A DNA stretch of 23,144 nt from a virus: IMG/VR virus record IMGVR_UViG_3300031143_000035, positions 1-23,144 of that record, one strand, 5' to 3'. Position 1 is the stretch's first letter. Each line of letters starts with the position of its first letter. A model generated the notes under the pieces. That model was given only the letters and a program-made list of their open reading frames with translations, ran no database searches and was not told the DNA's origin. Shown here one piece after another: positions 1-11,325 of this stretch. Both the position numbers and the translations under genes were made by a program.

Positions 1-2718
1 TTTCGTTTAGAATTTAATAAACTCCAAAATGACGTTTTAATTCTTAAAGACAATCCTACTTTCTCTAACCAGTTAGTTTTTGAAGGCGTGACAGCTGATG
101 CGTTTGAAACAACATTCACGGTTACAGACCCTACTGCTGACCGTACTGTTACTCTTCCCGATGCAACTGGAACTCTACTCCTAACAGGACAGGCATCTAT
201 ATCGGTTGCTAATGATGGTACTATTGGTAGTCTAGGCACTGGTGATGCAATGACTATTGCTTCAAATGGTGTTATTACTTTTGCAGATAGACCAGTATTT
301 GGTGATGGGGGTATCACAATACCAAATGATGGTCAAGTAGGTTCAGTTGGTGCAACGGATGCAATTATCATTGCATCAACTGGTATCGTTACATTCAAAG
401 ATGATATTCTTATTAAAGATGGTGGTACTATAGGTTCTGCTTCTGCCACCACTGCTATAACTGTTGCATCTACAGGTATTGTAACATTCGTAGACGATAT
501 TCTTATAAAGAATGACGGTACTATAGGTAGTGCTGGTACTGCAGCTGCAATGACAATTTCTTCTGGAGGTATTGTCACCTTTGCTGATGATATTCTCATC
601 AAAGATGGTGGAACAATAGGTGTTGCATCTACGGCAGATGCAATGACTGTATCTTCTGCTGGTATCGTAACATTTATTGATGATATTAAAATTAAGGATG
701 GTGGCACTATCGGTGTTGCTTCTGCAGCTGATGCGATGACTGTATCTTCTGCTGGTATCGTTACATTCAAAGATGACATACTAATTAAAGATGGTGGTAC
801 AATAGGTGTTGCAAGTGATGCTGATGCAATCACAATTGCTTCTAATGGTCAATTAACACTTACACAAACATTAATAGGAACTGAATTAGACATCTCTGGT
901 AACATTGATGTTGATGGTACATCAAACCTTGACATAGTAGACATTGATGGTGCTGTTGATATGGCAACTACTCTTGCTGTTGCTGGTAATACTACAGTCG
1001 GTGGTACTCTTGGTGTTACAGGTATTGCAACTTTTACTGATGATATAATCATAGGTGATGGAAAGACTATTGGTTCTGCTTCTGCAGCTACTGCCATGAC
1101 AATTTCCTCTGGCGGTATTGTTTCATTCATAGATGATATAACAATCAAAGACGGTGGTACAATAGGAACTGCGACTGATGCAGACGCAATTACGATTGCA
1201 GCTGCTGGTGCGGTTACACTCAGTCAAAGAAGTGTTCACAGTGCTGGTATTACTCTTGCAGATGACGGACAGATTGGTTCTGCATCAGATACAGATGCGA
1301 TTGCAATTAGTTCTGCTGGTGTTGTTACTCTTAGTTCTACTACTGCTTCTTCAAGTAAGACTACTGGTGCATTGGTTGTCGCCGGCGGTATTGGTACAAG
1401 TGCAGACCTTTATGTTGGCGATCTTTTAAATGTAGAAGGTGGTATTAATATCGCTGGATCAAACCAAGAATTACGTTTCTACGAAGGTGCAAACTACGTT
1501 GGTTTTGAAGCTCCCGCCCTAAGTGCAGACCAGATTTGGGTATTACCAGCAGCTGATGCAGGTACTGACGGTGATGTTCTTATGTCAAATGCCAGTGGTA
1601 CTCTTAGTTTTAGTACTGCTGTTTCTGGTACTGCAACTGTGTTTACTGCTTCTGCAAACAACTCTGCCAACGAAACTGTTTTTCCAGTATTTGTTGACGG
1701 TGCAACTGGAGCTCAAGGTGCAGAAACAGATACAGGATTAACATACAATCCTTCTACTGGTCTAATGACAATGGCAAAACTTCTTCTTGCCGATGGTGGT
1801 ACGATAGGTTCTGCATCTGCTACTTCTGCAATGACTATCTCCTCTGGTGGTGTTGTTACCTTTATTGATGACATCATTATTAAAGATGGTGGTACTATCG
1901 GTTCCGCTTCTGATGTTGATGCGATAACAATCGATGCCAGTGGTAATGCTACTTTCTCTCAGAACTTGACAGTTACAGGTGTTACCACACTAAATGGAAA
2001 CTTAGTTCTGGGTGATGCGGCGGCGGACACATTAACCATTGGTGCAACATTACAGGGTGCAAATCCTCTAGTCTTTGAAGGTGCAAGTGCTAATGGACAT
2101 GAGACTACGTTTGCAATTACAGATCCCACAGGGGATCGTACTATCACTTTTCCAGATGCGACTGGCACAGTTTTAACTACTGGAACTAATATTGTAATAC
2201 CTGATGCTGGAACAATCGGTTCTGCCTCTGACACAAACGCAATCGGAATTTCTGCTGGTGGTGTTGTATCCATTACAGCAACTACCGTTTCTTCCAGTAA
2301 GACTACTGGTGCATTAACTGTCGCTGGTGGTGTGGGTATCGCTCTTGATGCGGCAATCGGTGATGATCTCTTTATGATTTCTGATGGTGCAGTTATCACC
2401 TTTGGTGCAAACTCAGAGATTGCATTAACACACGTTCATGATGTAGGTCTTCAGATGACATCTACAGTTTATGCTCCTCTATCTCGCAGAGGTGAGGATG
2501 TATTCATAGTAATGGATCAATCAGCTGCAGCGGGTACTGATGCTGGTGATAATATCATCATGGATCGATCTGCTGCCAGTACGGACGTTGGTGATGACAT
2601 AATAGGTGAAGATGAGGTCTTCCTACATAGTGGTATGCAAAGGAATGTTATAAATATTATTGGATCAAATGGTAAGATACTTAATTCGGTTGCAGGATTT
2701 GCGCCAGGAGCTATATAA
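1..2718 (+). CDS. Repetitive tail-fibre / adhesin-like virion protein, 5' end cut by the window
   Basis: The reading frame is open from base 1, so the gene starts upstream; the GTG at 88 is an internal codon. The visible 905 residues are rich in Gly, Ala, Thr, Ser and Asp and have almost no Cys. They consist of degenerate 31-residue units of the form DDI-I-DGGTIGSAS-A-AITI-S-GIVTF, with five in direct tandem (400-864) and pairs at 1039-1224 and 1774-1959. A second module (LVFEG...ETTF-ITDPT-DRT-TFPDATGT) occurs at the 5' edge and again near 2070-2175, and an SSSKTTGAL-VAGG module occurs near 1345 and 2290. This pattern suggests a trimeric beta-rich shaft. The C-terminus (about 2515-2620) has a doubled Asp/Gly motif ending DDIIGED. 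Position before the neck genes matches the fibre/whisker area of T4-like phages. Fibre assignment is from composition and context; no receptor-binding fold was identified. Confidence 0.75.
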   Translation, partial: FRLEFNKLQNDVLILKDNPTFSNQLVFEGVTADAFETTFTVTDPTADRTVTLPDATGTLLLTGQASISVANDGTIGSLGTGDAMTIASNGVITFADRPVFGDGGITIPNDGQVGSVGATDAIIIASTGIVTFKDDILIKDGGTIGSASATTAITVASTGIVTFVDDILIKNDGTIGSAGTAAAMTISSGGIVTFADDILIKDGGTIGVASTADAMTVSSAGIVTFIDDIKIKDGGTIGVASAADAMTVSSAGIVTFKDDILIKDGGTIGVASDADAITIASNGQLTLTQTLIGTELDISGNIDVDGTSNLDIVDIDGAVDMATTLAVAGNTTVGGTLGVTGIATFTDDIIIGDGKTIGSASAATAMTISSGGIVSFIDDITIKDGGTIGTATDADAITIAAAGAVTLSQRSVHSAGITLADDGQIGSASDTDAIAISSAGVVTLSSTTASSSKTTGALVVAGGIGTSADLYVGDLLNVEGGINIAGSNQELRFYEGANYVGFEAPALSADQIWVLPAADAGTDGDVLMSNASGTLSFSTAVSGTATVFTASANNSANETVFPVFVDGATGAQGAETDTGLTYNPSTGLMTMAKLLLADGGTIGSASATSAMTISSGGVVTFIDDIIIKDGGTIGSASDVDAITIDASGNATFSQNLTVTGVTTLNGNLVLGDAAADTLTIGATLQGANPLVFEGASANGHETTFAITDPTGDRTITFPDATGTVLTTGTNIVIPDAGTIGSASDTNAIGISAGGVVSITATTVSSSKTTGALTVAGGVGIALDAAIGDDLFMISDGAVITFGANSEIALTHVHDVGLQMTSTVYAPLSRRGEDVFIVMDQSAAAGTDAGDNIIMDRSAASTDVGDDIIGEDEVFLHSGMQRNVINIIGSNGKILNSVAGFAPGAI
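400..864 (+). repeat. Five tandem 93-bp coding repeats (31 aa each) in the fibre gene
   Basis: Units begin at 400, 493, 586, 679 and 772, each opening with Asp-Asp-Ile and holding the core KDGGTIG or KNDGTIG followed by a conserved SAGIVTF-like end. The length is exactly 31 codons per unit, so unit number can change without a frameshift. Units 3 to 5 are the most alike (GVAS-ADAMTVSSAGIVTF), which suggests recent duplication. Further pairs of the same unit lie at 1039-1224 and 1774-1959. Confidence 0.85.
2649..2656 (+). promoter_or_regulatory. Possible T4-type late promoter (TATAAATA) inside the 3' end of the fibre gene
   Basis: Exact TATAAATA, the -10-like element used by T4 late transcription (gp55/gp33/gp45). 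It lies 62 bases before the ATG at 2719, farther than the other late motifs here, and within coding sequence, so it could be chance. Confidence 0.35.
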
Positions 2719-3672
2719 ATGACTGCAAGATCCCCATTATATGTAGATGATAATAACGATCTAGTTGAAATGTCTGCTGGACAAATTGTAGAAGTTCAAC
2801 AACGAGCAATATATCATTATGGTACTTCTCCTTCTGCTGTTCTTACACAGGTGAGTGGTAGTGGTGCTGGTATGGCTGCAATGTCTGATACTCGTTTACA
2901 GGCTGGCGCAGTTTCTCAATCTGCTACTGCATTTGTCGCAGAAGGAACTACTGCTGAACCAGGCACAGTTACAGTATCATATGATAAAATTACTCTTGCA
3001 TATACTGCATCTGGTTCTGTAGGCGAAACTTCAGATACAGGAACATCATTTCCCGTATATTATGATAATAGTAGTGGTTCTATTCTAGCAATGAGTTTAA
3101 CAGATTTTCAAGATACTTTTTTACATCCTGCTATTGATCTAATGATATCAGGTACAGAAAGTGCAAATACTGCTGGAACCTACACTATTACAGACTCTGC
3201 GACAGCTGCTACTAATTATACTAATGTTTCTGATACGGCAGTTTTTATAAACACCATTGCAAATGCTTCTGCATATACGGCTGGTGGAATTCCAGAAACA
3301 TTAGATCAACCAACTACAGTTACAAGTTATTTTTTACATCGAAGGGATGCAGCTGCTAGCACACCTTCACAAATGCCTGTTGTTATTGACAGTGCTAATA
3401 ATTTACAAGAGATGTCTAACTCTACTATAGATACTTTAATTGGAAATTGGTTAAGAAAAACAGCTGCACATTCTGGAGATGGATATAAAGTAACGTATGC
3501 ATCTGCTACATCAGGTGGAAATACTAGAGGAACTGCTATGATAGATACTAAACTTAATGGTTCTGGTAGTTATCTAACTCGCCAGGTATCAGATGATTAT
3601 AGATCACAAGAAATGCCAAACGGATCAGCAGCCACAATTACTACGTATAATTTGCGTATAAATAAAGGATAG
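2719..3672 (+). CDS. Putative virion structural protein with three internal modules
   Basis: This 317-aa protein is rich in Ser, Thr, Ala and Gly, with no Cys and no signal peptide, consistent with a structural or fibre-associated role. The ATG at 2719 directly follows the TAA of the fibre gene and has a strong AGGAG ribosome site at 2706-2710. Three related modules of about 106-108 residues start near residues 6, 112 and 220. Each opens with a PLYVD / FPVYYD / MPVVID segment, then L-E/A-MS, and later a Thr/Ser-rich stretch. The family is not one I can name; similar proteins next to fibre genes are common in marine T4-like phages. It may be a fibre-tip, fibril or head-fibre component. The function is inferred from composition and position only. 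Confidence 0.6.
   Translation: MTARSPLYVDDNNDLVEMSAGQIVEVQQRAIYHYGTSPSAVLTQVSGSGAGMAAMSDTRLQAGAVSQSATAFVAEGTTAEPGTVTVSYDKITLAYTASGSVGETSDTGTSFPVYYDNSSGSILAMSLTDFQDTFLHPAIDLMISGTESANTAGTYTITDSATAATNYTNVSDTAVFINTIANASAYTAGGIPETLDQPTTVTSYFLHRRDAAASTPSQMPVVIDSANNLQEMSNSTIDTLIGNWLRKTAAHSGDGYKVTYASATSGGNTRGTAMIDTKLNGSGSYLTRQVSDDYRSQEMPNGSAATITTYNLRINKG
3657..3664 (+). promoter_or_regulatory. T4-type late promoter TATAAATA
   Basis: Exact TATAAATA, 19 bases before the ATG at 3684 and followed by AGGAG at 3671-3675. The same arrangement (late box, purine-rich ribosome site, ATG) recurs at 15454 and 18212. It overlaps the last codons of the upstream gene. Confidence 0.7.
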
Positions 3673-3683
3673 GAGTTAAAGTT

Positions 3684-4175
3684 ATGGCAGTTGGAGAACC
3701 ATTTGCATTTTCTGGTAGAATTGTTGAAGCGTATTATACTAATGCTGAACAGGATAGTGTAGCTATTATGTACAGTGATGGCGAAACGAATCGTGATTAT
3801 CATTTGCCAGTAGACGAAAATGATGATCAGTTTAAAGCATTGCTCTCTGAATATTCTTATGAGAGTTTAGACGAAGCTACACGAGCTAAGAATGAGAAAG
3901 ATCGACAATGGTGGAGAGATGCGTTTAATGATTACGCTGAACGAAATGGTATGTTGGGTGGAACTCCAGAAGAAGGACAAGCGGATTTAAATATTATTTT
4001 TGATTTTGATCCAGATGATGCAATAAAAAAGGAAGAACTATTTAAACTTAAATTGAAAATGTTTGAACAAGATATAGTTAAAAATAGTAAATCGAAAGCT
4101 AATAAAGCAGCAATCAGAAAGGCTGATACTCCGATAGAAGCAATCGTTGCTTATAAAAAATTCATAAAAAAATAA
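3684..4175 (+). CDS. Small late protein of unknown function
   Basis: A 163-aa protein I cannot assign to a named family. The N-terminal 50 residues look like a small beta-rich domain (GRIVEAYYTNAEQDSVAIMY), and the rest is charged and mostly helical, ending in a Lys-rich tail (about residues 110-163, probably coiled coil). There is no signal peptide or membrane segment. A TATAAATA late box at 3657 and AGGAG at 3671 precede it, so it is probably made late with virion proteins. It sits at the end of the fibre module, just before the sigma70-type promoter of the accessory operon. A virion or assembly role is plausible but inferred only from timing and position. Confidence 0.6.
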   Translation: MAVGEPFAFSGRIVEAYYTNAEQDSVAIMYSDGETNRDYHLPVDENDDQFKALLSEYSYESLDEATRAKNEKDRQWWRDAFNDYAERNGMLGGTPEEGQADLNIIFDFDPDDAIKKEELFKLKLKMFEQDIVKNSKSKANKAAIRKADTPIEAIVAYKKFIKK

Positions 4176-6552: not shown

Positions 6553-7790
6553 CTAAAAACCTTGAAGAGTATGAATGGTTTTGCCCACAACCCTTTATGA
6601 ATATCGTAACAGATGTTTTTGGAAAAATAAAACCTTGTTGTGTAATTAAGGGTAATAACGATTGGGATAGAAATCAGACAATAGAAGAATATTCTAAGTC
6701 AGACAAACTCAAACAATTTCGTAAGGAGATGTTGTTAGGGGGCGGCCCGACAGTAGATTCTAATTGTGAAGTTTGCATCGAACAAGAGAAACATTCTCCA
6801 GAGAGTCATCGTAAAACTTACAATAGTTATCTTGATTATCAAAAACCAGAATTAAAAAAAGAACTTGAAGAGTATCTAGAAACAGATATGGATACTCCAT
6901 TCGTGCGAACTATGGAGTGGATTGCTCCTTCAAACTTCTGTAATCTTCGTTGTCATATGTGTGGGTCTGCAAACTCTTCTAGTATTGCCAAAGAGAACCA
7001 GCAGATTGGACACCCCAATATTCCTAGTCTTGGTAACAAAACCTTATACAAGGATGATGACAAGGCAGAGAGTTTTATTCAAGAATGTGATGATTTTATA
7101 ATAGATAACCTTGTTGAGTTAAAGTTAACAGGGGGCGAGACACTTGCCATCAAATACAATTATGACTTGATGAAACGTATTGTTGAACGTGATCTTGCAA
7201 AGAATATGGACTTGAGAATTACTACCAATGGAACACTAACCCCGAAATTTGATGGTAAGGATATCTTTGATTATATTCCAGAGTTTAAGAGTTGTTTGAT
7301 AAACATTTCTATTGAGGGCTGGGCAAAGCGTAATGAGTATATTCGATACCCATCTAAGTGGGATATTATATACCATAATGCTAAACGATTTGCATCTTTA
7401 GATAATACAAAAATATTATTCGTATCAACGATCAACTCTATAAATGTAGGATATTTGTGGGAGATTGCAAAGGGCATGGAACATTTGTTTGATCTATACC
7501 CAGACACTTTTCATCAGTTTTCAACAGGTAGTCTTGTATGGGGCTGGATGGAAAAATATGTTATCACAAATGTACCACTAGATATTCGAGAATATTATGC
7601 TCAGTTATATTTTGAAAACTGGAATAAAAGATATAACCAAGACTTCAAAAAAATACTTGACTATCTCGACACACTACCATATGATGAGGAGTTGATGCAC
7701 AAGATGATGAAAGACGTTAAATCTAGAGATATACATAGAGGGACATGTTTGCTTGACCTTGCTCCTGAATGGAAACCTTATTATGAATAA
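6549..7790 (+). CDS. Radical SAM protein with N-terminal twitch/SPASM-like cysteines
   Basis: A 413-aa protein with the canonical radical SAM CX3CX2C motif at residues 131-138 (CNLRCHMC), which binds the catalytic 4Fe-4S cluster, and a GGET motif at 195-198 for SAM binding. Unusually, a second cysteine set lies before the core: C12, C30, C31, C73 and C76. This resembles the twitch/SPASM auxiliary-cluster signature (PF-NIVTD-FGKIKPCC), usually found after the core. Auxiliary-cluster radical SAM enzymes modify peptides, proteins or sugars through radicals. It overlaps the 60-aa gene by 4 bases and the next glycosyltransferase by 8. The substrate is unknown; the neighbours (glycosyltransferase, methyltransferase, oxygenases) suggest a tailoring pathway. 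It is distinct from the second radical SAM protein at 11322. Confidence 0.85.
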   Translation: MTKNLEEYEWFCPQPFMNIVTDVFGKIKPCCVIKGNNDWDRNQTIEEYSKSDKLKQFRKEMLLGGGPTVDSNCEVCIEQEKHSPESHRKTYNSYLDYQKPELKKELEEYLETDMDTPFVRTMEWIAPSNFCNLRCHMCGSANSSSIAKENQQIGHPNIPSLGNKTLYKDDDKAESFIQECDDFIIDNLVELKLTGGETLAIKYNYDLMKRIVERDLAKNMDLRITTNGTLTPKFDGKDIFDYIPEFKSCLINISIEGWAKRNEYIRYPSKWDIIYHNAKRFASLDNTKILFVSTINSINVGYLWEIAKGMEHLFDLYPDTFHQFSTGSLVWGWMEKYVITNVPLDIREYYAQLYFENWNKRYNQDFKKILDYLDTLPYDEELMHKMMKDVKSRDIHRGTCLLDLAPEWKPYYE

Positions 7791-8499
7791 TACAATATTA
7801 TGTGTGAAGTGGGGTGACAAATATGATCACACCTATGTTGAGAAACTAAAAGAACAGTGCGAACAAAATTGTTCTGTGCCGTTTAACTTTTACTGTCTTA
7901 CAGACAATCCTACACAACCATATGATATACAACTTCCTACTACTTGGGATTCCTACTATCATGAAAAACGGGGGTTCTTTTGGGCATATCGAAAGATACA
8001 TATGTTCAGTGATTTAGTTGGGGGAGATCAATTCCTTTTTCTAGACCTTGATGTTATTATACACCAAGACCTAAAATATTTCTTCGAATTACCAATGGAC
8101 AAACCGTGGATTGTTCGTGGTTGGTGGAACGATCTAGCCACAGTTAAAACAAACTATTCAAAGAATAAGTCAACGCCACTTAACTCATCAGTTATTCGTT
8201 GGAATAGAGGACAAATGAAATCTGTTTATAATCAGGTGAAGGATAATGCAGAGGTTATATTTTTCACATATCCTAGTCTTGATAATTACATGGTTCATCA
8301 CTGGTATGATCCTTGGAAAGAAGATGAAGGATTCTTACAGGGGTTTCCAAAAGGAGATGTATATTCTTGGTACAAAGGTAATATACATCCTGATGATATG
8401 TCTAAGAAGGTGTTAAGGAAAGATCATAAAATTTGTTTATTTAATAATAGTACTCATACTGAGGGTGATTATGATGAGGAAATTAAAACCTTATGGTAG
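7783..8499 (+). CDS. GT-A-type glycosyltransferase (copy 1)
   Basis: A 238-aa protein with the hallmarks of a small GT-A/GT8-like glycosyltransferase: an N-terminal strand (ILCVKWGDKY), the metal/nucleotide-sugar binding DxD in FLFLDLDVII (D88, D90), and an acceptor-side segment LNSSVIRWNRG. It would transfer a sugar from a nucleotide-sugar donor to an unknown acceptor in the cytoplasm. I chose the ATG at 7783, which overlaps the stop of the radical SAM gene (ATGAATAA), over the upstream ATG at 7753, because it begins just at the conserved first strand. The glycosyltransferase at 13681 starts with the matching IICIRIGEKY and has the DxD in the same place, so the two are paralogues. Confidence 0.75.
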   Translation: MNNTILCVKWGDKYDHTYVEKLKEQCEQNCSVPFNFYCLTDNPTQPYDIQLPTTWDSYYHEKRGFFWAYRKIHMFSDLVGGDQFLFLDLDVIIHQDLKYFFELPMDKPWIVRGWWNDLATVKTNYSKNKSTPLNSSVIRWNRGQMKSVYNQVKDNAEVIFFTYPSLDNYMVHHWYDPWKEDEGFLQGFPKGDVYSWYKGNIHPDDMSKKVLRKDHKICLFNNSTHTEGDYDEEIKTLW

Positions 8500-9149
8500 A
8501 TCATATAAAATTCACACCAGCTGTTGCTAGAGATTGGAAGTCTGTACAGTCTGCTGTTAGGGGCGATACATATAAACATTGTGCAAGAAGAGTAGAAGAT
8601 GCCAGCACATCATCACAACTGAAAAGTAAGTTGTGGATAATAGAAGAAGTTTCTAATCTTGGGGTTAAAGTAGATAGGGTGGCTATTCTTGCTGGTTGGT
8701 ATGCTAATTTTATTGTTCCCTTGTTAATAGATGAACTTGGTGCTTCTTTCATTCATAATTTTGAAATTGATCAAGATGTAAAACAGTTAAGTTATAAGTT
8801 TAATAAGAGATATAAGGAAGAAGAAAAATATAAGTGCTATATTGTAGATGTTATGTTTGAACCTATATGGCAGTACATGAAACAGGGTGTATCGGGTTTT
8901 GATCTTGTTATTAATACATCATGCGAACATATGTTTCCCATGCAAAAATTCCTTAAAATGAATCGAGGATTCCTTGGTAATCCACTTTACGTTTTACAAT
9001 CAACAGATGATAGCTCTTTTGATGATCATATCAATTGCGTTAGTTCTCCTGATGAGTTAGCTGAACAGGCAAAGCTTGTTGATGTTTTATATAGTGGAAC
9101 AAAGGTATTAGATAACGGTATGAATCGTTTCATGGTAATAGGAAAATAA
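8493..9149 (+). CDS. SAM-dependent methyltransferase-like protein
   Basis: A 218-aa protein with a class I methyltransferase-like core: motif I region VAILAGWYANF (63-73), acidic end of strand 2 in NFEIDQD (89-95), and FDLVINTSCEHMF (136-148) at the motif IV position. The Gly-rich loop is atypical (AGW rather than GxGxG), as in several marine phage methyltransferases. Two short ends flank the core: IKFTPAVARDWKSVQ at the N-terminus and LDNGMNRFMVIG at the C-terminus. Exactly these ends survive in the mini-ORF at 10446. It overlaps the upstream glycosyltransferase by 7 bases and is followed after one base by the 2OG oxygenase. The substrate is unknown. Confidence 0.6.
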   Translation: MVDHIKFTPAVARDWKSVQSAVRGDTYKHCARRVEDASTSSQLKSKLWIIEEVSNLGVKVDRVAILAGWYANFIVPLLIDELGASFIHNFEIDQDVKQLSYKFNKRYKEEEKYKCYIVDVMFEPIWQYMKQGVSGFDLVINTSCEHMFPMQKFLKMNRGFLGNPLYVLQSTDDSSFDDHINCVSSPDELAEQAKLVDVLYSGTKVLDNGMNRFMVIGK

Positions 9150-9150
9150 G

Positions 9151-9729
9151 ATGGTAGGTTTAATGGATTATGTAAAATATTATCCAGATATTTTAGACTC
9201 TGATTGGTGTCAAAACTTAATTACTAGTATTGGTAAAAGTAAACAATTTATTAAACTAAAACATTGGGAGAGTCATGGTATAGATCGTGAAAATGATTTG
9301 AAACATTTATATGTACCTGTAATAGATTGCTTTATGGAAGCAAAAGATTTATACCTAAAAGATGTTGATATAAATCACCCCAATAAAGATTTCACATATT
9401 TTGTTGAGTGGGGTAATAAATGTAGAATACAACACTTTGAAACAGGGGGCCATATGCCAACCCATGTAGATAATACTGTTACACAAGTCCCAAAAAAGAA
9501 ATATCCTAATAATGGGTTACACTTTGGTTCTGAAAGTGCTGATTCGAAATTATCATTAGTTCTTCATTTGAATGATGATTATGAGGGAGGAAATTTTCAT
9601 ATAAATGATAAAGATTACTCAACAAAAAAAGGATCAGTAATAGTTTTTCCTTCTGCATTTATGTATCCACATGGAGTTAAGGAAGTTACTAAAGGAGAAA
9701 GATGGAGCATCTCTATCTTTATGAAATAA
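9151..9729 (+). CDS. 2-oxoglutarate/Fe(II) oxygenase, prolyl-4-hydroxylase-like
   Basis: A 192-aa protein with a clear 2OG-Fe(II) dioxygenase double-stranded beta-helix. HxD is at H105-V-D107 (MPTHVDN), followed by LSLVLHLNDDYEGGNFHI (135-151), the distal iron ligand H174 (FMYPHGV) and the 2-oxoglutarate-binding R184 (GERWSISIF). It would hydroxylate a substrate while converting 2-oxoglutarate to succinate. The length and the LNDDYEGG segment match the phage P4H-like family common in marine T4-like phages. Start 9151 lies one base after the upstream stop; an ATG at 9163 with AGG upstream is an alternative. It is one of three 2OG-type enzymes in the window and unlike the two AspH-type ones. 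The substrate could be a protein, a sugar or a nucleic acid base. Confidence 0.85.
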   Translation: MVGLMDYVKYYPDILDSDWCQNLITSIGKSKQFIKLKHWESHGIDRENDLKHLYVPVIDCFMEAKDLYLKDVDINHPNKDFTYFVEWGNKCRIQHFETGGHMPTHVDNTVTQVPKKKYPNNGLHFGSESADSKLSLVLHLNDDYEGGNFHINDKDYSTKKGSVIVFPSAFMYPHGVKEVTKGERWSISIFMK

Positions 9730-9730
9730 G

Positions 9731-10462
9731 ATGAAATTAATTGCAATAGGGTGTAGTTTTACTGAACATTATATGCTTAGTAGAACGTATTCTAGTTATG
9801 ATTTGGATTATAAAAGATGGCCTGCTCATTTAGCAGAAAGCCTTGATATGGAATGTATTAATTTAGGTTTAGCAGGAAGAGGTAATGAATATATGTTATC
9901 AAAAGCCTTTGATGCATCTTCTATAGGTGATATTGGATTAGTAGTAGTGATGTGGAGCGAATTTCAAAGAATGGATTATGAAAAAAAAGAAGAGAGGGGT
10001 GGTTGGCGCAGTTTTCATCCCCATTTACCTATTCAAGCAGCTGAAGAAGCAGGCCTTATGTCGGTCAATAAAAAGATGTTGGAATATAAGAACCCTACTG
10101 CTGCATCTTTACAATCGCTTAGGTTTTTTTCTTGGTTTCAATTTATGATGAAGAATATTCCGTATTTGCAAATTCAAGGAGTTAATCCATTACCTGTGGG
10201 GAATAGTCATAAAGGTTATCATCCACTAGTTTTGAGTGACAGAGAAGAAGCCATTAAAGCAATAATAGATTCTGATTATTATGATTTAATAGATGAAGAT
10301 AAATTTATAGGTTGGCCTATATTTAAAGAAATTGGTGGTCACACTGTAGAGGATGTACTCCCTGACAATTGTAGAATTGGAGAAAAAGATCGTCACCCTA
10401 ATGCGATAGGCCATGAAATAATAGCACAGAAGATATTTGAGAATTATGATAGAATATATTAA
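9731..10462 (+). CDS. SGNH/GDSL-hydrolase-like protein (copy 2)
   Basis: A 243-aa paralogue of the protein at 5580. The conserved points are GCSFT (7-11, candidate nucleophile Ser9), NLGLAGRGNEY (block II/III Gly-Asn region), GLVVVMWSEFQR, IQG..PL, FIGWPIFKEIGGH and the C-terminal DRHPNAIGHE with D220 and H222. It shares the overall length and motif order of copy 1 but is clearly diverged, so the pair is not a recent duplication. The ATG follows the oxygenase stop by one base with no clear ribosome site, so coupling is likely. The end overlaps the mini-methyltransferase ORF by 17 bases. A deacetylase or esterase on a glycan is the best guess. Confidence 0.65.
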   Translation: MKLIAIGCSFTEHYMLSRTYSSYDLDYKRWPAHLAESLDMECINLGLAGRGNEYMLSKAFDASSIGDIGLVVVMWSEFQRMDYEKKEERGGWRSFHPHLPIQAAEEAGLMSVNKKMLEYKNPTAASLQSLRFFSWFQFMMKNIPYLQIQGVNPLPVGNSHKGYHPLVLSDREEAIKAIIDSDYYDLIDEDKFIGWPIFKEIGGHTVEDVLPDNCRIGEKDRHPNAIGHEIIAQKIFENYDRIY

Positions 10463-10604
10463 ATATACGCCTGAAGTAGCGAGAGATTGGAAACAGGCTC
10501 AGGCTGATGTGCAGAAAGATTATCCAGAAGTTCTAGAAAGTATGACTCTAAATAATGGTATGGAAAGGTACATGGTGATAGGATATGATTCACGGAGCAG
10601 ATAG
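10446..10604 (+). pseudogene. 52-codon internally deleted copy of the methyltransferase gene at 8493
   Basis: An intact short ORF whose product begins IKYTPEVARDWKQAQADV and ends NNGMERYMVIGYDSRSR. The first 22 residues match the N-terminus of the 218-aa methyltransferase (13 identical positions, including TP-VARDWK), and residues about 29-46 match its C-terminal stretch (VLDNGMNRFMVIG). The roughly 180 residues of the catalytic domain in between are absent, so it cannot be a methyltransferase. The DNA has diverged from the intact gene, so it is an old deletion or derives from another phage's allele. It remains in frame without stops, overlaps the upstream SGNH gene by 17 bases and the downstream hydroxylase by 20. 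It may be a relic or a retained small protein. Confidence 0.7.
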
Positions 10605-11325
10605 TAACGTATACACAAAACCTTATAAGGCAGGGAACATTGTAGAGTGGTGTAGAGATCATGATGTATGGTATCTAAAGATTGACATAGAGATACCAGA
10701 GGTATGCATTAAAGAAGCGCAAGCAGTATACGATGAGGGTTTCTTTGTTGATCATCGTTATGGTGATGGAGATGGCTGGCGTTCTGCCGCTATTCATAGT
10801 TTTGTACATGAGGATGCAGATGATACAAGTATGGGATGGCATCATACTAAGAATCCAAATGGCCATGGCCTTAGTGAAGATAAAGTAAAGTGGGGTTGGA
10901 CTGAGATTGCCGAGGTTGCGCCAGAGACTAAGAGATGGTTAGAAGATTTCCCCCACAAGTCCTATAGACGTTTGCGGTTTATGTTATTGGAACCAGAGGG
11001 GCGTATAGAATCACATAATGATGCATCTGATCAAAGAATAAAAGAAGGTCGAGTACGAAACATTGCTGGTGCGATTAACCTTGCTTTTTATCAACCTGAT
11101 GGTTGTTATCTTAGGAGAGTAGACACAAAGGAAGAGTTGCCTTTTGAGAACTGTACAGGTTTCTGGTTTGATAATGGAGTAGAACATGAGGCATACAATG
11201 CATCAGCTGAAAATAGATTTCACTTTATCATGCATGGTGGGTTTAATAAAGAACGTAAAGAATTAATGAGAAAATCTCTTGCTAAACAGTTTGGTAAGGA
11301 TGTATTGAAAGAAATTTATAAATGA
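10585..11325 (+). CDS. Aspartyl/asparaginyl beta-hydroxylase-like 2OG/Fe(II) oxygenase
   Basis: A 246-aa protein. The C-terminal half has the AspH-type fold signature: RLRFMLLEPEGRIESHND with H144 and D146 as iron ligands, INLAFYQPDGCYLR (164-177), distal H201 in GVEHEAYNAS and R211 in ENRFHFIMHGG for 2-oxoglutarate. AspH-family enzymes hydroxylate Asp or Asn side chains or related substrates. The N-terminal ~120 residues (many Trp, His and Asp) are not recognised and may recognise the substrate. The start at 10585 lies inside the mini-ORF and the end overlaps the next radical SAM gene by 4 bases (ATGA). A related but more divergent AspH-like protein lies at 19059 inside the neck operon. Confidence 0.75.
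   Translation: MIHGADSNVYTKPYKAGNIVEWCRDHDVWYLKIDIEIPEVCIKEAQAVYDEGFFVDHRYGDGDGWRSAAIHSFVHEDADDTSMGWHHTKNPNGHGLSEDKVKWGWTEIAEVAPETKRWLEDFPHKSYRRLRFMLLEPEGRIESHNDASDQRIKEGRVRNIAGAINLAFYQPDGCYLRRVDTKEELPFENCTGFWFDNGVEHEAYNASAENRFHFIMHGGFNKERKELMRKSLAKQFGKDVLKEIYK

Follow-up and report, generated by a model that had tools for sequence, protein, structure and literature searches.

The window analysed here, a whole virus record of 23,144 bases, comes from a marine virus in which head-tail connector, tail-sheath-stabilizer and small-terminase genes flank a block of metabolic and modification genes. Within this block the order is rSAM, glycosyltransferase, methyltransferase (MTase, at 8493), 2OG oxygenase, GDSL, a short remnant ORF, hydroxylase and rSAM (Table 1). 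The window also encodes, at 88-2718, an 876-aa protein with many similar repeats (KDGGTIGSAS.. type) and without PHROG match.

The short ORF starts with the ATG at 10446, ends with the TAG at 10602-10604 and translates completely as MIEYIKYTPEVARDWKQAQADVQKDYPEVLESMTLNNGMERYMVIGYDSRSR. It is indeed the 52-codon open frame overlapping both neighbours that the first-pass annotation had described. It has no Pfam or PHROG match.

Table 1. Positions of the features discussed, in the window unless a contig is named
Feature	Position	Strand	Remarks
Glycosyltransferase-like gene (phrog_1962)	7783..8499	+	Upstream block
Class I MTase-fold protein, full-length	8493..9149	+	Second copy, of different lineage
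2OG-Fe(II) oxygenase gene	9151..9729	+	Between full MTase and GDSL gene
GDSL/SGNH-like gene	9731..10462	+	Stands where the remnant's MTase normally has a glycosyltransferase before it
MTase remnant ORF	10446..10604	+	52 codons, MIEYIKYTPEVARDWKQAQADVQKDYP then EVLESMTLNNGMERYMVIGYDSRSR; L003 and L004 have the full-length gene in this place
N-terminal 27 codons kept in remnant	10446..10526	+	89% aa identity to L003 MTase residues 1-27; DNA alignment
Overlap of GDSL-like gene 3' end and remnant	10446..10462	+	17 nt
Deletion junction	10526..10527	+	About 168 codons (about 504 bp) absent relative to L003/L004; CCA possibly shared, nothing more
C-terminal ~25 codons and stop kept in remnant	10527..10604	+	LNNGMERYMVIGYDSRS, against LNNGMERFMAIGYDSRS in L003
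GGTGAT, SD-like site for hydroxylase	10574..10579	+	Within remnant codons Met-Val-Ile; 5 nt before hydroxylase ATG
Overlap of remnant and hydroxylase	10585..10604	+	20 nt
Asp/Asn beta-hydroxylase-like (PF05118) gene	10585..11325	+	Downstream neighbour of remnant; 91-93% identical in L003/L004
In-frame ORF of glycosyltransferase start and MTase end	L051 791-835; L052 686-730; L053 3753-3797		14 codons; directly before hydroxylase

The parent of the short ORF

The window holds one complete MTase, the protein encoded at 8493. Its AlphaFold model (pLDDT 91.6) has mostly SAM methyltransferases as top PDB matches, and its sequence profile finds spermidine synthases as the best solved relatives (E = 0.0016). 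The model gives it a Rossmann-like class I SAM-dependent fold, and we predict it to be a methyltransferase. The family is common in viral contigs (at least 543 confirmed stretches), and the copy at 8493-9149 is itself without Pfam or PHROG match. A full-length homologue, 27% identical, is the putative methyltransferase Mosig_00090 of Pelagibacter phage Mosig EXVC030M (MT647606; PMC7892664); that gene adjoins a carbamoyltransferase gene and, unlike the arrangement in the window, is followed by no hydroxylase and accompanied by no remnant.

The short protein, used as a query against viral contigs, recovered in the remnant's own place a full-length MTase of 221 aa in two marine viral contigs with a glycosyltransferase-MTase-hydroxylase cassette (L003 6001-6666, L004 1437-2102). 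Position, start, tail and overlapping downstream gene are all shared with the remnant. The hydroxylase that follows is 91% and 93% identical to that of the window and starts within the MTase end, the full-length gene has a 17-nt overlap, and the tails, ...NNGMERFMAIGYDSRS or ...NNGMKRFMAVGYDSRS, have the ...YDSRS ending in common with the remnant. The window copy differs in being without about 168 internal codons, the whole SAM-binding core included.

The first-pass annotation had read the ORF as the two ends of an MTase gene joined together, had taken the 8493 protein as their source and had proposed to look for a longer gene at this exact spot in relatives. The longer gene exists, and both end similarities hold in proper alignments, where none of 5,000 shuffles attains the scores against the 8493 or L003 protein at either end. 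The source is another one: against the L003/L004 MTase the N part scores 132 and the C part 83-84, against the 8493 protein 83 and 51. Each end independently fits the L003/L004 lineage best, so the 8493 gene is out as parent and the remnant derives from a second, differently descended MTase. A tree points the same way, with the remnant grouped with L003/L004 (90/75; a position that depends on 21% of columns) and the 8493 protein placed apart, together with L007 and L022 in another starred group. Judged by its two ends, then, the remnant is an in-frame deletion derivative of a second class I MTase gene, of the L003/L004 lineage.

The pieces are also longer than the ~22 and ~18 residues first proposed, namely 27 and ~25 codons. 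In a DNA alignment the missing stretch lies between codon 27 (GATTATCCA) and the part preceding CTAAATAATGG; 17 of the ~25 C-part codons align gap-free, the first eight residues of that part align loosely, and the 3' edge of the deletion is accurate to within a few codons. As first stated, the catalytic domain is gone: the remnant lacks codons ~28-195 of the L003/L004 gene, and with them the GGW loop, the acidic strand end and the NTSCEHM motif of the SAM-binding core, without which the remnant does not qualify as a class I SAM-dependent methyltransferase. It has both marks of a deletion remnant, an intact counterpart in place in relatives and two pieces of one parental lineage.

The junction was seen in one contig only. 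Neither the same junction nor the same N terminus was found elsewhere among the matches listed by our pattern-based searches of the viral contig collection, from which the closest relatives of the window may be missing, and named phages gave no match to the short ORF. A near-identical contig (L006/L097) stops inside the GDSL gene, short of the remnant.

The cassette and its other versions

We compared the window with 80 hydroxylase loci, of which, the window included, 69 could be scored. A full MTase lies directly 5' of the hydroxylase in 57 of them and a partial one in three (the window, L055 and L057), and in nine tblastn shows none. The usual order in relatives is glycosyltransferase-MTase-hydroxylase. 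The hydroxylase itself has no relative that we found among named phages, and a search of genome contigs placed it in two MAG contigs only.

Setting aside the near-identical contig L006, the nearest relatives of the window differ from block to block: L004/L003 for the hydroxylase, L047 (82%) for the upstream rSAM and L007-type contigs (64%) for the full MTase. These differing affinities of the upstream and downstream blocks mark the window as a mosaic, in which two MTases have come to lie in one cassette. Since the upstream block brings its own MTase, the old copy would be redundant, and this redundancy would be why it decayed. The mosaicism is otherwise fairly ordinary for a phage. Recombination across related cassettes, which the first-pass annotation had suggested from the deletion points, thus fits the surroundings of the remnant; it does not fit the deletion, which involves one MTase lineage and at most a shared CCA at the junction. 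Recombination between the two MTase copies was considered as the cause of the deletion and is not supported.

In three other lineages the MTase is lost or split, yet between 6 and ~44 codons of its end remain ahead of the hydroxylase. In L057, MTase residues 1-127 are followed by a frame break; the last ~44 codons survive in a different frame, to which a GTGA overlap can give access. In L055 a complete MTase is followed by approximately the last 41 codons of another MTase and then by the hydroxylase. In L051-L053, three contigs from different metagenomes, the glycosyltransferase and the MTase are otherwise gone and a 14-codon ORF (MNKMMNNIFMVIGR) remains, made of MNKMMNNI from the glycosyltransferase start and FMVIGR from the MTase end; it overlaps the hydroxylase by ATGA. 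Like the remnant, this fusion joins an upstream start in frame to the MTase tail directly before the hydroxylase; unlike it, it removed two genes together, left only 6 MTase codons and is found in three contigs. No MTase tail precedes the hydroxylase in L050, L054, L021 and L089, so that the tail is replaceable, and dispensable over evolution.

Probable hydroxylase start signals in the methyltransferase tail

In most relatives the MTase ends in ATG GTN ATH GGN, one further codon and TGA, and the hydroxylase ATG overlaps this TGA (ATGA). When the valine of this MVIG is encoded by GTG, the sequence GGTGAT results, which is able to pair with the end of the 16S rRNA. GTG is in fact used in 33 of 58 genes that precede a hydroxylase, against 106 of the 719 other valines (15%) of the same genes (p about 3e-12, for sequences that are related and not independent), and this column has the top GTG share among 16 conserved valine columns (56%; the next has 32%). 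With one gene per 80% cluster, Shine-Dalgarno (SD) pairing exceeds that of synonymous shuffles, a modest effect (27 clusters, p = 0.01). GTG is also somewhat raised in MTase genes followed by a different gene (8 of 24); their difference from the hydroxylase set is not significant (p = 0.09), so the SD-like site may serve whichever gene comes next.

The L003/L004 genes themselves are without GGTGAT; GCG replaces GTG, and GGCGAT or GGCGGT stands at that place. No occluding RNA structure was found at the hydroxylase start, where the window and L003/L004 give weak folds only. At the other end of the remnant, the SD of the N-terminal start looks weaker by eye than in L003/L004.

Why the frame is still open

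We favour, as the probable history of the locus, that the remnant is the deletion scar of a redundant second MTase whose 3' end has been held as the translation-initiation region of the hydroxylase, and that ribosomes running through it may help the hydroxylase to start. The mosaic relationships suggest an ancestor with the glycosyltransferase-MTase-hydroxylase order of L003/L004, in which recombination would have swapped everything upstream of the MTase for a block that brought an MTase of its own along with a 2OG oxygenase and a GDSL gene. The downstream MTase would then have lost, in frame, the ~168 internal codons that the comparison shows to be missing, and with them the whole Rossmann core. 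The 3' end would have stayed because it is also the hydroxylase initiation region: GGTGAT lies in the remnant's Met-Val-Ile codons, and the final 20 nt of the remnant already code for the hydroxylase. The 5' end of the remnant overlaps the GDSL stop. More tentatively, the open frame would allow ribosomes that finish the GDSL gene to translate the mini-ORF, which may aid the hydroxylase start. The encoded peptide is probably a by-product. Against this history stands the fact that any deletion has a 1 in 3 chance of being in frame. The first-pass annotation had offered a scar kept for the sake of the next gene as one of two readings; the deletion scar has stood, and its retention is borne out in part by the SD-like site, the 20 nt of hydroxylase coding sequence and the tails kept in three lineages.

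The same 1 in 3 chance favours a plainer account, a random internal deletion that is in frame by luck and open because it is young, with selection only on the bases shared with the neighbours' coding sequences. The junction is known from one contig, and remnant codons 7-27 differ from L003/L004 with a pN of 0.04 and a pS of 0.37-0.52, as an intact gene would have before the deletion; the remnant is single and short, and most of this divergence may predate the loss. Values so like those of an intact gene would mean that the deletion is recent or that the frame is under selection, two possibilities that one remnant cannot separate. We consider this account rather unlikely: three other lineages still carry an MTase tail in front of the hydroxylase, one of them in frame and in three separate assemblies, and the SD-like codons are located in the tail. 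The single contig could also mean an assembly chimera or artefact at the junction, all the more since the near-identical L006/L097 ends before the remnant, and we hold this to be very improbable, as both ends belong to one lineage, are joined in frame and overlap their neighbours plausibly, and as the similar L051-L053 remnant recurs in three assemblies.

A stronger form of our preferred history is that the frame itself is selected, since translating it supplies the hydroxylase start with ribosomes, in the manner of a uORF leader. The first-pass annotation had proposed such coupling, and the remnant does have the layout of a leader ORF, with an SD-like site inside it and a stop near the downstream start. 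Short upstream ORFs whose sole role is to drive translation of a coupled downstream gene have been proposed (PMC12548453); they too end at the next gene's start with an SD within. The remnant differs from them in arising from gene decay, in that its coupling is putative and in its overlap of 20 nt where 4 nt is common. In work reported in that review, coupling falls as the overlap increases from 4 to 25 nt (PMC12548453), so the remnant is far from the -4 nt spacing, within the reported fall-off and suboptimal in this respect. The literature yielded this general review and no case of a coupling ORF derived from a remnant. Both the window and L051-L053 fuse an upstream start in frame to the MTase tail, and the L057 tail can be re-entered at its GTGA; the events are few, each with its 1 in 3 chance, and the weaker N-terminal SD also counts against this stronger form. 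Active coupling to the hydroxylase is plausible from this arrangement, and unproven because the 20-nt overlap is unfavourable; that the frame is maintained for it we regard as a possibility, and a doubtful one.

The other reading first offered, a microprotein with an end-to-end interaction surface, which would here consist of the MTase's N-terminal helix and C-terminal beta-hairpin, received no positive support, and we find it extremely unlikely. The kept parts do correspond to helix 9-23 and strands 198-205 and 211-217 of the MTase model, and the remnant folded alone gives a strand, a helix and two strands in its best model (pLDDT 75). This is a single-sequence prediction in which the other four of five models reach pLDDT 52-58 and pTM is 0.44, scores that are no evidence of a working protein. 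No relative in our searches has such a microprotein, the L051-L053 fusion holds 6 MTase codons only and L057 breaks the frame.

The locus would show in what sequence a phage cassette turns over, in that a block bearing a homologue arrives, the old homologue loses its core and its 3' end remains. It suggests why the ends of decaying genes persist in overlapping operons, where they carry the start signals of the next gene, and it is a caution for annotation, where a short ORF lying between genes that overlap can prove to be a fossil rather than a microprotein. If coupling is true, we envision a natural path from gene to leader ORF. A speculative extension, to which we give little weight, is that the cassette genes ahead of the hydroxylase have been cut down again and again to in-frame mini-ORFs surviving as translated start modules, so that decay yields leader ORFs.

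Some of the compared loci hold further genes. L054 has a Cys-rich ORF of 56 aa (2937-3107) between MTase and hydroxylase, and L050 has radical-SAM-like and DUF59-like genes, named by eye, in the same interval (2646-3998). In L053, a 359-aa ORF (1835-2914) runs from a GDSL-like N-terminal part into Sel1-like repeats, as judged by eye, and adjoins other GDSL copies.
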